A stretch of DNA of 64,000 nt from an uncultured Planctomycetaceae bacterium (GTDB lineage: Bacteria; Planctomycetota; Planctomycetia; Planctomycetales; Planctomycetaceae): the NCBI GenBank assembly GCA_903896675.1, contig CAITYU010000377.1:25713-89712 (forward strand), given 5' to 3'. The translations under genes were made by a program, and so were the position numbers. Shown piece after piece: positions 9,538-16,948 of this stretch (position 1 is its first letter; the number at the start of each line of letters is the position of its first letter). The notes under the pieces are model-generated. The model worked only from the letters and a program-made list of their open reading frames with translations, was not told the DNA's origin and searched no databases.

Positions 9538-11148
9538 TCAGGTAACCGCTGCACTGGGTTCATCGAGGAATCGTCGGAGGACATTGGCTGTGATTCTGGA
9601 GATCTGCTGATCCACAGGCAGAGACGCCACGTAGTTGATGGAACCGACGGAGAATACCGCACCTTTGGAGTCTGTTTCCAGCAGCACCATTTCCGCTCCG
9701 CCGTTATCGGGATTGGTTCCGCGAGCCAGCAGTCTGGTCTGGGGTGGAGAACTGGCCGAGCGTTTGTCAGTTTCGTGTCCGGAGGCTCCGCCGGGGCAGC
9801 GTCTGTGCAGGCATTCCTCGCCGAACAGCTGTCCGTTACGCAGGCCGGTGCCGGCAAACACCCAGTGTGCTTCATCCTGCACCTGGTAGGGCGCACCGGT
9901 CATGGCGCCGGCCGGCGTAAAGACAACTCCCAGCAGGCTGGCTTCTGATTCATGTCGCATCCCGAAACGGCTGTCGCAGCCGTTCATGCCGCTGCTCCAG
10001 AGCGACTGAATGCAGCCATTGTGAACCGTCATGGCAGCATCGTGAAGCTGCACTTCGCAGTTCAGTCCATTGCCACCGAGGTACATCAGTCTGCCACCGG
10101 TGTGCTGCACCCAGTGCCGGACCTGCCGGTACATGGGCAGGCTCCAGTATTCCGGATGCACAGCGATGATCAGTACGCGGTAATCCTGCAGGTTCAGCGT
10201 ACCGTCGTGCAACTGAGTCTCTGCGTAGTAGTCGTAGTCGAAATGCTCGCGTTCGAGCCAGCCGAGCAGACGCCATTCCGCGGGTGCGAGGTGACAGGCC
10301 TGGCGACCTTCGATGGGATCCGTGATGGCCTCTGTGAAGTCCACATCGCAGAAGGGTTCCGGTCTTTCGAATGACAGCGGAGCATACCTGGGATAACCCC
10401 AGGTACCGTGTTCCGGATCGGCGTAACGCTTCAGTTCGACTCGTGAATTGACTGTGGGTGTCTGCGGCAACTGATCGGCATGAATGTAGTTGCTGCGTCC
10501 GCCGAACGAGTTGTAGGCGTTCCAGGTGATATTCGAGGCGAGTACGGCGACTTTCGCCTGTGGTTTGCGGGGGGCGACGATCCACGGGAAGGAGAACTGC
10601 CGCCCTGAGCGATCCTGGGCGCGGAAATAATACAGCCCGCTGCGTTCCGGTGCCTGCACGAACTGCCGGTGCGTGACGGATGTGTAACCGACGCTGTTCC
10701 AGCGACAGCCGGTCTGAGTGTAGTCACCGTCCGGCGTGACCTGCATAACGGCTCGTGGCCCGTGTTCATCGTGCCAGCCGAGCTGCCGTACAAGTTCCGG
10801 TTGCCAGCCGTACCGCCACAACTGCAGCCGATAGGCATCAACGGCGTGGACTCGGAATTCGGATTCATCTCCGGCGCGCACCCATTTGGGCCACGCATAC
10901 CCCAGCAGTCCGTCAGCCAGCAGGCGGAATTGCACGGGTTCGCAAAGGGGCAGGGTGACGTGCGAAATTTTTGCGCCGAAACCATCCTTGCGCAGAATCA
11001 CCCGATAATGGCCGGCGGGCAGATCCAGCCAGACGCTGCCACTGGCTCGCGAACGAGTCTCCCACGACTGTCCTGCATCATCGACGAATTCCAGCAGTAC
11101 ATCGGGGAGTGCGACATAGCGTTCGTCACTGACATAGCCGATTTTCAT
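9538..11148 (-). CDS. N,N-dimethylformamidase large-subunit-like protein
   Basis: A 536-residue protein without a signal peptide. Residues 1-70 look like a small beta-sandwich (carboxypeptidase-regulatory type). Residues about 90-200 form another beta domain. From about 205 to the end it resembles the beta-subunit-like C-terminal domain of N,N-dimethylformamidase, seen in VAVLASNITWNAYNSFGG and GGRLMYLGGNGLNCEVQ. The true substrate is unknown: most members of this family are not characterised amidases. A segment at about 455-480 (with GGASGHETDKRS) is low-complexity and probably a loop. The stop touches the start of the ThiF-like gene, so the two are likely coexpressed with mqnP and mqnE. Confidence 0.78.
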   Translation of the reverse strand: MKIGYVSDERYVALPDVLLEFVDDAGQSWETRSRASGSVWLDLPAGHYRVILRKDGFGAKISHVTLPLCEPVQFRLLADGLLGYAWPKWVRAGDESEFRVHAVDAYRLQLWRYGWQPELVRQLGWHDEHGPRAVMQVTPDGDYTQTGCRWNSVGYTSVTHRQFVQAPERSGLYYFRAQDRSGRQFSFPWIVAPRKPQAKVAVLASNITWNAYNSFGGRSNYIHADQLPQTPTVNSRVELKRYADPEHGTWGYPRYAPLSFERPEPFCDVDFTEAITDPIEGRQACHLAPAEWRLLGWLEREHFDYDYYAETQLHDGTLNLQDYRVLIIAVHPEYWSLPMYRQVRHWVQHTGGRLMYLGGNGLNCEVQLHDAAMTVHNGCIQSLWSSGMNGCDSRFGMRHESEASLLGVVFTPAGAMTGAPYQVQDEAHWVFAGTGLRNGQLFGEECLHRRCPGGASGHETDKRSASSPPQTRLLARGTNPDNGGAEMVLLETDSKGAVFSVGSINYVASLPVDQQISRITANVLRRFLDEPSAAVT

Positions 11149-12597: not shown

Positions 12598-14118
12598 TTG
12601 CACGCTGATCTTCCCACCTCCGGGCCCGACTTGTCCGCAACTTCTCATACCGGTCCCTGGTACCGTGCCCTGAATCGGTATCACTGGTTCGTGCTGGTGG
12701 TGTCGGCTCTGGGCTGGCTGTTTGACTGTCTGGACCAGCAGCTGTTCATTCTGGCACGACCGGCAGCGATGAATGACCTGCTGAGTCATATCAAGGATGC
12801 GAAGCTGCTGGCCAGTGAATCGCAGAAGTACGGTGACATTGCGACGTCGGTGTTTATTGCCGGCTGGGCGACCGGCGGGTTGATTTTCGGGATGCTGGGG
12901 GATCGCATCGGTCGTGCGAAGACGATGCTGATCACGATTCTGATGTATTCCATGTTTACGGGGCTCAGTGCGTTTTCCGTCAGCGTTTATGACTTCGCCT
13001 TTTACCGCTTTCTGACGGGTCTGGGTGTGGGCGGTGAGTTCGCGGTGGGCGTGGCTTTGGTGGCCGAGGTGATGCCTGCGGTGGCTCGACCGTATGCTCT
13101 TTCTCTGCTGCAGGCTTTGTCGGCTTTCGGGAACATCAGTGCAGCGCTGATCAATCTGGGGCTGGGGGTGGCTGAGGGCGAGGGATTTGTGACCAGTCCG
13201 TGGCGGATTATGTTCTGCATCGGTGCTTTGCCGGCACTGCTGACGATTGTGATTCGACGAAATCTGAAGGAGCCGGAGGCGTGGCAGAGAAGTCGGGCTG
13301 AGGGTCGGGTGGTGTCCACGACGGAGACGTATCGTGAACTGTTCGGGCATCCGGTCTGGCGGCGGCATGCACTGCTGGGACTGGCACTGGCGTGTTCGGG
13401 GGTGATTGGATTGTGGGCTGTGGGTTTTTATGTACCCGACCTGACTCGCACGGTGCAGACGAAGCCGGTGACGGAGGCGATTTACGCGGCTGAAATTCAG
13501 GCGGCCCGGACCGCCGGTGATGCAGCTCGCGTGGCCGCTTTGCAGCAGGTGCAGCAGGCGATTGCGGCCAATAAACTGGAAGGGCTCAGCACCGAGCTGC
13601 AGGACGTGAAGAAGTCGGTGGATCCGAAGATCAAGGGCCGTCTGACGTACTATCAGAGCTACAGTTCGATAGCCATCAACATTGGGGCGTTCTGCGGGAT
13701 GTTTGGTTTTGGGGCACTGTCGCAGCGGATTGGTCGCAAGCCCACATTTGCGATTGCTCTGGTGGCTGCGTTTGTTTCGACTGTCACGGTGTTCTGGACG
13801 CTGCAGGATCTGTGGCAGATCTTTGTGCTGGTGCCGATTATGGGGTTCTGTCAGTTGAGTCTGTTTGGCGGATATGCGGTGTATTTTCCGGAGTTGTTTC
13901 CGACGCGACTGCGGTCGACGGGAGTCAGTTTCTGTTACAACGTGGGGCGTTTTGTGGCTGCAGTGGGACCGCTGGTGAAGATGTGGCTGAATGAGGTCTT
14001 CAAGGAGACGGCTGAGCCATTGCGGTACGCTGGTGTCACGATGTGTCTGGTCTTCCTGGTGGGACTGGTGGTGCTGCCGTTCCTCCCGGAGACTCTGGGC
14101 AAGCCATTGCCGGAGTGA
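12598..14118 (+). CDS. MFS transporter, sugar/organic acid:H+ symporter type
   Basis: A 506-residue major facilitator with 12 predicted membrane helices. Typical motifs are G101DRIGR106 between helices 2 and 3, the YRFLTGLGVGGEF stretch in helix 4, and the second-half repeat LSQRIGRKPTF. Asp43 in helix 1 (FDCLDQQ) suggests proton coupling, as in the aromatic acid and sialate symporters. The central loop is unusually long (about residues 280-345) and looks like a charged amphipathic coiled coil. The start is TTG, supported by AGGAG about nine bases upstream. The closest general class is the AAHS/SHS (sialate, benzoate) families; substrate is not determined. The zincin gene follows 29 bases later. 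Confidence 0.85.
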   Translation: MHADLPTSGPDLSATSHTGPWYRALNRYHWFVLVVSALGWLFDCLDQQLFILARPAAMNDLLSHIKDAKLLASESQKYGDIATSVFIAGWATGGLIFGMLGDRIGRAKTMLITILMYSMFTGLSAFSVSVYDFAFYRFLTGLGVGGEFAVGVALVAEVMPAVARPYALSLLQALSAFGNISAALINLGLGVAEGEGFVTSPWRIMFCIGALPALLTIVIRRNLKEPEAWQRSRAEGRVVSTTETYRELFGHPVWRRHALLGLALACSGVIGLWAVGFYVPDLTRTVQTKPVTEAIYAAEIQAARTAGDAARVAALQQVQQAIAANKLEGLSTELQDVKKSVDPKIKGRLTYYQSYSSIAINIGAFCGMFGFGALSQRIGRKPTFAIALVAAFVSTVTVFWTLQDLWQIFVLVPIMGFCQLSLFGGYAVYFPELFPTRLRSTGVSFCYNVGRFVAAVGPLVKMWLNEVFKETAEPLRYAGVTMCLVFLVGLVVLPFLPETLGKPLPE

Positions 14119-14147: not shown

Positions 14148-15527
14148 ATGAAGAGTGATGCGCGGAAGGTCAATGCCGGTCTTCGCGGCGGGCTGCTGTG
14201 TTTTGCAGTTTCTGCAATTCTGCTGCTGTCCGGGGGACCGCTGTTGGCGCAGGTACGGCTGCCGGACGACCGTCCGGCGCTGGATGTGGCAGCATTGGAA
14301 GCGGCGGGTTTGAGGGTGTATCGTTCGCGGCATCTGGTGCTGGTTTCTGATGCTCCGATTGAGCAGTGTCAGGATCTGCCGGGGCTGGTGGATCGTTTTT
14401 ATCCGGCGCTGCAGCAGACGCTGGGTCCGCTGGCACCGGCTGTCGGTGGTGCGGAGTTTCAGGTCACTGGTTACCTGATGGATGCGCGGGAGCGGTTTCA
14501 GCAGGCGGGGGTACTGCCGGATGGTGATTTCGTGATTCGTCACGGTCGTCATCTGGGGTATCAGTTCTGGATGAACAATCAGCCTTCCGACTATTATCGG
14601 CGTCATTTGCTGCTGCACGAGGTTGTGCACTGTTATCTGATGTGCGAGCACGGGATGCGGGACATTCCGCCGCTGTGGTACACGGAGGGTGTTGCCGAGA
14701 TGCTGGCGACGCATCGGTTGCAGCCGCTGCAGTTCGGGATCCTGCCTGAGCAGTTGAATGGTTTTGAGGGCTGGGGGCGGATTGCCGAGCTGCGGCGACG
14801 CCCGCTGGACCCTGCCGGCGACGTGTCTGAGGGCGTGTTGCTGGATGACGTGCTGAATCCGGCCAGTCGGATTTTTCTTTCCGACCTGCGGTATGCTCAG
14901 GCGTGGGGTCTGGTGTGGCTGTTGCGGAATCATCCTGAACTGCAGCGACCGTTTGCGGGCCTGTTTCGGGTACGCACACGGGCGCAGTTTGATACAGCGA
15001 CAGCGGGGATATCAGCGGAGCAGTTGCAGCGGCTGGGGATTGTGTGGCAGTTGATGCTGGATGCGTGGGAGGAGGGCTTTGATCCGGAGCGGTCGTTTCC
15101 ATTGCTGAACCCGGAATGGCAGTTGTGGTCGGAGGTGTCGGCGAGGCCACAGCAGTTGCAGGTGCAGGCGGAGCGGGGCTGGCAGCCGAGTGGTTACTGG
15201 TTTGGTGCAGAGACGCGAATTCGGCTGTCGGCAGCAGGACGGAGTGTGCTGCAGGCGGCGGGTGCGGACGGTGCGCGGGCGTGGGAATCGGAGCCTGCGG
15301 GAATTACGATCGATTATGCTCAGGGGCGACCACTGGGTGAGCTGCAGGCGGTGCTGGTGAAGCGTGAACCGGACGGAGTACCGCAGCGGCTGTCGGTGGG
15401 AGCGGGCAGTGAGCTGCAGGTGCCTGCGGGCAGTGAGTTATGGCTGCGAATCAATGATTTCGAGGGTCAGCGGCGTGGGAATTCCGGGGGCTATCAGGTG
15501 CAGTTGCAGTCGGCAGCGGACCGCTGA
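14148..15527 (+). CDS. secreted gluzincin-like peptidase with PA-IL-like C-terminal domain
   Basis: Exported protein of 459 residues with a hydrophobic signal segment (about 14-34). A zincin site is visible: H157EVVH161, with Glu180 in YTEGVAEML as likely third zinc ligand, the arrangement of peptidase MA-like (DUF1570-type) proteins. The last 100 residues or so resemble the galactose-binding PA-IL (LecA) fold: EPAGI, a GRPLGELQAVLV stretch, and NDFEG followed by NSGGY. I infer a carbohydrate-tethered surface protease. The start ATG 14148 follows a GCAGG purine stretch and gives the signal peptide; the frame open upstream overlaps the transporter gene. Likely cotranscribed with its neighbours. 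Confidence 0.75.
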   Translation: MKSDARKVNAGLRGGLLCFAVSAILLLSGGPLLAQVRLPDDRPALDVAALEAAGLRVYRSRHLVLVSDAPIEQCQDLPGLVDRFYPALQQTLGPLAPAVGGAEFQVTGYLMDARERFQQAGVLPDGDFVIRHGRHLGYQFWMNNQPSDYYRRHLLLHEVVHCYLMCEHGMRDIPPLWYTEGVAEMLATHRLQPLQFGILPEQLNGFEGWGRIAELRRRPLDPAGDVSEGVLLDDVLNPASRIFLSDLRYAQAWGLVWLLRNHPELQRPFAGLFRVRTRAQFDTATAGISAEQLQRLGIVWQLMLDAWEEGFDPERSFPLLNPEWQLWSEVSARPQQLQVQAERGWQPSGYWFGAETRIRLSAAGRSVLQAAGADGARAWESEPAGITIDYAQGRPLGELQAVLVKREPDGVPQRLSVGAGSELQVPAGSELWLRINDFEGQRRGNSGGYQVQLQSAADR

Positions 15528-15565: not shown

Positions 15566-16948
15566 ATGCTGGGAATAGTGGCGATTCTGGCTTCGCTGAC
15601 ACTGCTGATGCTGCTGGCCTATCGGGGTGCGAGCGTAATCGCTCTGGCTCCGGTGTGTCTGTTACTGGCTGTGATGGCGGATCCGGCGACACCGCTGCTG
15701 GCCGGGTATACGCAGGTGTTCATGCCCGGTGTGGGGCGCTTCATTGCGCAATATTTTCCGTTGTTTCTGCTGGGTGCGGTCTTTGGTCGGCTGATGGAGG
15801 CAGCGGGGGCGGCGCGGCGGATTGCGGTGTTCATCACGGAGCTGCTGGGTGCAGAGCGTGCGGTGCTGGCGGTGGTGCTGACCTGTGCCGTGCTGACTGG
15901 CGGGGGTGTGTCGTTGTTTGTGGTGGTGTTTGCGGTGCAGCCGATTGCCGATTATCTGTTTCGTCGGGCGGACGTGCCGCGGCGTCTGATTCCGGCGGCG
16001 ATTGCTCTGGGTTCATTCACATTCACGATGACGGCACTGCCGGGGACAGTGCAGCTGCCCAATCTGATTCCGATGCAGTGGTTTGGAACAACGGCGTTTG
16101 CGGCGGCGGGGCCGGGTTTGGTGGCATCCGTGGCGATGTTTGCGGCGGGGATGTTGTGGCTGGGTCGGCGAGTGCGAGCGGCGCAGCAGCGGGGTGAAGG
16201 TTACGGGGGCGGGCAGGTGGCGCAGTCAGCGGTGTCGACGGAGGCCGGGCCGTTGCCGGGGACAGTCGCCGCGTTCGCTCCGATTCTGTGCGTGATCGTG
16301 GCCAATTTTGTGCTGTCGCAGTGGGTTCTGCCGAAGCTGAATGCCGGTTATCTGGCGGATGCGAGGTTTGGTGGGACGACTCTGGCGAAGGTGCTGGGAA
16401 CGTGGTCGGCGCTGCTGTCGATGCTGCTGGCGATTGGGCTGGCGGCGCTGCTGTTTGGCCGGTCATTTCGGACTGTGAATGAGTGGCTGGGAGAAGGAGC
16501 GAAGTCGTGTCTGCTGCCGGTGTTCAACACGGCGACCGAGTATGGGTATGGGACCACGATCGCGTCACTGGCGGGGTTTGCGGCGATTCGGGACTGGCTG
16601 AGTTCCTTAAGTCCGGGGAATCCGCTGGTATCGGAAGCTGTGACGGTGAACATTCTGGCGGGTATCACCGGCTCGGCATCGGGGGGCTTAAGTCTGGCAC
16701 TGGAGTCGATGGGGAAGGTCTACGCGTCTCAGGCGCAGGCGGGTCTGGTGGATCCGGAGCTGCTGCATCGTGTGGCGGCGATGTCGTGTGGCGGGCTGGA
16801 CAGTCTGCCGCACAACGGGGCGTTGATCACACTGCTGATGATTTGTCGGTGTACTCATCGGGAAAGTTATCCGGACGTGGCTGTGGTGACGGTCCTGATT
16901 CCGCTGGCGGCCACGGCGCTGGTGGTGCTGTATGGGGCGGGATTGTGA
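15566..16948 (+). CDS. GntP-family permease (gluconate/organic acid:H+ symporter type)
   Basis: A 460-residue, very hydrophobic membrane protein with about 12-14 membrane segments. The layout and stretches such as GGGVSLFVVVFAVQP, FGRLMEAAG, NILAGITGSASGGLS and GGLDSLPHNGA match GntP permeases (gluconate, fructuronate, glycerate, D-serine). Members with the DSLPHNG motif are often annotated GntP but have untested substrates. It starts 38 bases after the zincin gene. Together with the MFS gene the unit holds two carboxylate- or sugar-type importers around a secreted peptidase. Confidence 0.85.
   Translation: MLGIVAILASLTLLMLLAYRGASVIALAPVCLLLAVMADPATPLLAGYTQVFMPGVGRFIAQYFPLFLLGAVFGRLMEAAGAARRIAVFITELLGAERAVLAVVLTCAVLTGGGVSLFVVVFAVQPIADYLFRRADVPRRLIPAAIALGSFTFTMTALPGTVQLPNLIPMQWFGTTAFAAAGPGLVASVAMFAAGMLWLGRRVRAAQQRGEGYGGGQVAQSAVSTEAGPLPGTVAAFAPILCVIVANFVLSQWVLPKLNAGYLADARFGGTTLAKVLGTWSALLSMLLAIGLAALLFGRSFRTVNEWLGEGAKSCLLPVFNTATEYGYGTTIASLAGFAAIRDWLSSLSPGNPLVSEAVTVNILAGITGSASGGLSLALESMGKVYASQAQAGLVDPELLHRVAAMSCGGLDSLPHNGALITLLMICRCTHRESYPDVAVVTVLIPLAATALVVLYGAGL

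Follow-up and report, generated by a model that had tools for sequence, protein, structure and literature searches.

The gene at positions 14148–15527 of the window, i.e., the whole stretch of 64,000 nucleotides analysed, lies on the + strand, as do all features of this gene given below, and encodes a 459-aa protein composed of an export signal, a zincin half and a C-terminal PA-IL-like domain. With a probability of roughly 0.6, the protein is a zinc peptidase of gluzincin type that is exported, belongs to the planctomycete DUF1570-like zincins, and carries a PA-IL-superfamily accessory domain for docking. The architecture, the fold, the superfamily, the conserved catalytic set and the near-universal presence of the protein in its family were established by computation. 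Reading of the ORF agreed with the initial annotation, and all the motifs given there (H157EVVH161, E180, E382PAGI, G393RPLGELQAVLV, and N436DFEGQRRGNSGGY) were found. An alternative start codon, GTG at 14043, is present upstream of ATG 14148; the latter yields the export signal and is the better start. The signal covers residues 1–34 (14148–14249) and, on the basis of sequence and model secondary structure, contains a hydrophobic helix (residues 9–27) and the end LLAQ, without a lipobox. The earlier description of the protein as secreted is thus retained for the sequence of the source clade, but not for the 26 of 50 homologs in which a lipobox-like motif points to a probable lipoprotein. The peptidase would therewith be lipoprotein-anchored in many relatives and soluble in the source clade. 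In the source genome, the 459-aa protein was the sole full match to its own sequence. The AlphaFold2 model of the whole protein, built with 26 homologs (pLDDT 88.3, pTM 0.86), showed a mixed α/β N-terminal part and an all-β C-terminal part beginning at about residue 335.

The zincin half (residues 37–332; 14256–15143) was identified by profile and fold as kin of DUF1570, flagellinolysin and M9-type gluzincins. In an alignment of 50 homologs, H157, E158 and H161 of the zinc-binding and catalytic motif H157EVVH161 (14616–14630) were invariant, as were E180 (14685–14687), the putative third zinc ligand located within EGVA, and Y249 (14892–14894) of the YAxxW motif, a candidate transition-state tyrosine that aligned with the Tyr of YAESWA/G in DUF1570 zincins. 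H189 was likewise identical in all 50 sequences and C162 in 48, and the spacing from H161 to E180 varied from 17 to 19 residues. A183, placed at E+3, was invariant in alignment A1 of the homologs. Similarly, in flagellinolysin the third zinc ligand E262 is followed at E+3 by A265 (PMC5595980), whereas the spacing between HExxH and Glu is 25 residues in flagellinolysin as against 17–19 in the present family. Foldseek analysis of the N-terminal part of the whole-protein model retrieved lugdulysin and Grimontia collagenase with E values of ∼2e-4. With HExxH and the downstream Glu invariant and a fold matching lugdulysin and M9 collagenase, the protein falls within the gluzincins (clan MA). The gluzincin-like zinc site of the initial annotation, formed by H157EVVH161 and Glu180, is upheld by the same observations.

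Curated family models placed the protein in the same neighborhood. The NCBIfam flagellinolysin model (flagella_HExxH) was matched by 24 of 26 family members (best 1.6e-5) and Pfam DUF1570 (PF07607) by 20 of 26 (best 4e-4). None of the DUF1570 matches examined reached the Pfam cut-off of 22 bits, two members scoring 15.1 and 18.9 bits and the 459-aa protein having no match. A search of the source genome with the family profile returned three DUF1570 proteins having the HExxH, EG and YAxxWA motifs in register, and profile matches between the two groups ran in both directions, so that the shared catalytic core was recovered by profile. The planctomycete DUF1570 zincins resemble the 459-aa protein in having HExxH, 17–19 residues to the E of EGxAE, and then YAxxWA; the family members examined differ from them by having a distinct N-terminal part, and no C-terminal PA-IL-like domain is present in the DUF1570 proteins of the source genome. 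Flagellinolysin, the M9 collagenases and lugdulysin share the gluzincin fold and motif with the 459-aa protein, which lacks the flagellin or collagenase domains of flagellinolysin and the M9 enzymes. The matches to DUF1570 and M9 are weak. The profile of the zincin half retrieved no PDB sequence, lectins included, and hence the kinship is evidenced by fold and curated families. By sequence and fold, the 459-aa protein is a gluzincin-type protein, from which we infer peptidase activity. The two histidines of HEVVH together with E180 would hold zinc, E158 would act as general base, Y249 would probably stabilise the transition state, and protein cleavage would most likely take place at the cell envelope or outside it.

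The C-terminal domain (residues 333–459; 15144–15524) was found by profile and Foldseek to be a β-sandwich similar to PA-IL, PllA and EclA-N. A search of the PDB with the single sequence of the 459-aa protein gave no match, and a profile or a model was therefore needed to prove the likeness. The profile of 25 homologous domains, compared with 177,635 PDB sequences, retrieved PllA (5.3e-6), PA-IL (2.8e-5) and EclA (1.2e-3), with no further match below 0.2. The domain-only AlphaFold2 model had a pLDDT of 91.6, and all 11 of its Foldseek matches with E ≤ 0.001 were chains of EclA-N, LecA or PllA (TM 0.62–0.71); no non-lectin fold appeared at this level, the best match after the lectin set having an E value of 1.6e-3 and a TM of ∼0.4. 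The C-terminus of the whole-protein model also retrieved EclA-N, PllA and LecA, with E at the 1e-4 level. W345, W379 and G385 were identical in all 50 homologs. The Pfam PA-IL model (PF07828) matched neither the 459-aa protein nor any of 59 related genomes; the latter null says little because the control also matched nowhere there. A bridge was provided by a 179-aa planctomycete protein, L130, which scored 28.7 bits with Pfam PA-IL (cut-off 22.5), matched PllA by itself at 1.8e-6, and matched the profile of the C-terminal domain (hhalign E 5e-7). Since the domain profile, the domain-only model and this bridge agree, membership of the C-terminal domain in the PA-IL/PllA/EclA-N superfamily is solid, as judged from sequence and model, though Pfam misses this branch. 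The PA-IL-like character assigned to the C-terminus in the initial annotation is therefore confirmed. L130 itself (L130:1396-1932, + strand) has an export signal and ends in a PEP-CTERM-like C-terminal anchor; its PA-IL domain shows a canonical NDGVGSFGDNSG corner, and the protein is possibly a surface-sorted LecA-like lectin.

The best structural match was the N-terminal domain of EclA (PDB 6ygq), the superlectin of Enterobacter cloacae, with E 6.8e-6 and TM 0.65–0.69. Like the C-terminal domain, EclA-N is a LecA-type β-sandwich within a multidomain protein in which the galactose-binding residues are not kept (PMC11875179). Its partner is a fucose-binding domain, whereas the partner in the 459-aa protein is a peptidase. 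EclA-N, a LecA fold for which no sugar is known, is the nearest analogue of the C-terminal domain. PllA (5odu/5ofz) and LecA/PA-IL (1l7l, 2vxj, 4cp9) have the fold in common with the C-terminal domain at ∼20% identity; they are free-standing tetrameric galactose lectins, while the C-terminal domain is fused to a peptidase. EclA-N forms a dimer, as against the tetramers of LecA and PllA.

The initial annotation had also suggested that the peptidase is tethered to galactose-containing glycans, which would call for a working PA-IL-type Ca2+/galactose site. The superfamily and fold of the domain are in agreement with such a site, as is the ND...N-x-G corner, in which the ligand spacing D, +7, +8 is common to LecA/PllA and the C-terminal domain. 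N436 and D437 (15453–15458) were invariant in 50/50 homologs, D437 occupying the position of the Ca2+ ligand D100 of LecA and D114 of EclA (PMC11875179), and N445 (15480–15482), at the position of LecA N108 and EclA N122, was invariant in 49/49. However, the position of LecA N107 and EclA D121 is taken by G444 (15477–15479), and this ligand is lost in the 459-aa protein. The Ca2+ ligands expected from PA-IL are thus present at two positions and missing at the third, and the triad D, D/N, N is incomplete (D437, G444, N445). In EclA, the side chains of D114, D121 and N122 hold Ca2+ along with the main-chain oxygens of N54 and Q118 (PMC11875179), so that there are three side-chain ligands as compared with two in the 459-aa protein. 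Among 49 homologs, position 444 was D in 34, N in 4, G in 5, E in 2, K in 2 and R in 2, so that Asp/Asn was available as the third ligand in 38. As read from these residues, with Gly here and Lys, Arg or Glu in six homologs, the Ca2+ site is not under uniform constraint. These Ca2+ site assignments rest on residue positions, and the loop columns considered below were assigned approximately.

In LecA, Asp100 and Asn107 touch the ligand at Ca2+, and His50 and Gln53 bind O6 of galactose (PMC12684298). According to the alignment and the model, the hairpin E382PAGITIDYAQGRPLG397 (15291–15338) stands in place of this galactose loop; in the segment W379-ESEPAGITIDYAQGRPLG397, W379, G385, P395 and G397 were each at least 95% conserved. 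LecA and PllA carry the His/Gln loop, whereas the C-terminal domain has this conserved hairpin there. Q392 of the 459-aa protein lies near the Gln53 region of LecA and could be taken in favor of a galactose site. No conserved His/Gln of the His50/Gln53 type was observed among the homologs, the alignment of the loop columns being approximate: the nearest columns in 50 homologs were 389, with R25 D18 Q3 E3 H1, and 392, which was variable. Galactose binding is unsupported because the His50/Gln53 loop of LecA is replaced. Moreover, EclA showed no galactose binding even though its N-domain retains the full Ca2+ ligands, and EclA-N was left without an identified ligand (PMC11875179). With a triad of two out of three, a family-specific hairpin in place of the loop and an analogue lacking a ligand, the galactose tether is very improbable and the suggestion was not retained. 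A ligand other than galactose, or none, appears more likely for the C-terminal domain from its sequence.

A purely structural or a dimerisation role is conceivable for the domain. A ligand-free sandwich for structure or oligomerisation, in which the D/N residues of the corner merely shape the turn, would agree with a conservation dominated by invariant Trp and Gly, with the variation of position 444 to G, K and R, and with the dimers and tetramers built by the LecA-family fold. The complete conservation of D437 and N445 at the exact Ca2+ spacing and the Asp/Asn at 444 in most homologs argue against it, and the recurrence of related domains on unrelated exported proteins suits a binding module better; a ligand-free role is therefore considered rather unlikely. 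In the preferred reading, i.e., an exported zinc peptidase with an accessory domain, the β-sandwich would probably be a docking module that keeps the catalytic domain beside an envelope or extracellular polymer, with the contact site lying close to the D437/N445 corner and to the conserved W379/G385 hairpin. D-Galactose would not be the expected ligand of this module. In most family members, the docking site should hold Ca2+; in the source clade, polymer binding is probably Ca2+-weak or Ca2+-independent because one Ca2+ ligand is gone.

The relatives retrieved for comparison were uncultured Planctomycetaceae/Planctomycetales MAGs, and a contig scan yielded 7 close relatives. Homologs scoring at least 200 bits were present in 142 of 150 family genomes and any match in 148; in the remaining genomes, the gene was absent or represented by fragments at contig ends or by more distant paralogues. 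The gene thus comes close to being a core gene of the family. When 199 genomes from across the phylum were sampled, strong full-length matches were confined to the source family and two neighboring families of the class, and the zincin half alone gave weak matches phylum-wide. One paralogue (L095:2530-4122, − strand) lacks HExxH and lies beside an intact paralogue (L095:1096-2460); both have the C-terminal domain, and the former is likely, from its sequence, a pseudo-enzyme partner of the latter.

Domain searches revealed related domains on a second zincin class (HEAVHAY...EGMAE...NYAWRW), in which a D...DN corner is conserved, and on ∼240-aa TPR-like proteins and one PA14 protein of planctomycetes. 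Among all the related domains, including those listed next, the remote ones gave weaker matches, and their corner loops were often shorter. The N-terminal domain of an enhancin-like Peptidase M60 protein (L118:1366-2463, + strand), an unrelated second peptidase with such a module, matched the PA-IL-like profile, and four proteins similar to Type I phosphodiesterase/nucleotide pyrophosphatase (L093:1212-4481, L094:3358-5001, L123:1060-3114, and L129:1114-3111) have an N-terminal PA-IL-like domain preceded by a lipobox-like motif. On contig C101 of the source genome, a divergent copy is present in a 245-aa TPR-like protein (L164:1093-1827, + strand), whose gene adjoins that of a Ser/Thr protein kinase. 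Occurrence on the second zincin, phosphodiesterase, M60, TPR and PA14 proteins fits a portable exported accessory module.

Each half of the 459-aa protein is of a known kind, and the fusion is a variant of known domain and enzyme types. Most LecA-type domains known belong to soluble lectins from a small number of host-associated bacteria. No description of the fusion, of its near-universality in the family or of how widely the module occurs in planctomycetes was found in the papers searched, few of which were subscription ones. It is possible, though short of probable, that the LecA fold is a common portable envelope module in Planctomycetota with non-galactose ligands, by which a near-universal peptidase reaches an envelope or matrix polymer peculiar to planctomycetes; the galactose lectins of pathogens would then be one specialised offshoot. 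The family-wide peptidase fusion and the other exported planctomycete proteins, which go unrecognised by Pfam, offer an evolutionary setting for LecA, PllA and EclA, as well as a practical way into the numerous exported planctomycete zincins that are still uncharacterised (DUF1570 and kin).

The gene is flanked by an MFS transporter gene 29 bases upstream (12598–14118, + strand; Pfam Sugar_tr 2e-37) and a gene for a GntP-family permease 38 bases downstream (15566–16948, + strand; Pfam GntP_permease 26.4 bits, cut-off 22.5). Their location on one strand with such short gaps suggests a single transcript for all three. The MFS gene adjoined the peptidase gene in 15/15 loci retrieved from the same genus, and the GntP gene only in the source genome and the two relatives closest to it; in 12 loci from other genera, neither was adjacent and no neighbor at all was conserved. 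The linkage is genus-level and local, and the operon therefore tells little about function. The idea that the flanking transporters hint at product uptake is accordingly weak and unsupported, and the GntP linkage, confined as it is, was dropped as functional evidence. The absence of fixed neighbors beyond the genus, together with the near-universal presence, the probable lipoprotein form in many relatives and the existence of TPR fusions of a similar domain, would suit a housekeeping role, such as that of a periplasmic processing or quality-control peptidase whose lectin-like domain reads protein features and not glycans. Members of the fold with a known ligand bind sugars, however, and this role is regarded as unlikely. 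The MFS neighbor resembles carriers of the SLC22/aromatic-acid/sialate type but passed no subfamily cut-off among those listed, and was dropped as a pointer to peptide uptake; a long insertion separates its two halves. Near the locus, the window also encodes an ordinarily annotated DMFA2_C protein similar to the N,N-dimethylformamidase β-subunit (9538–11148, − strand).
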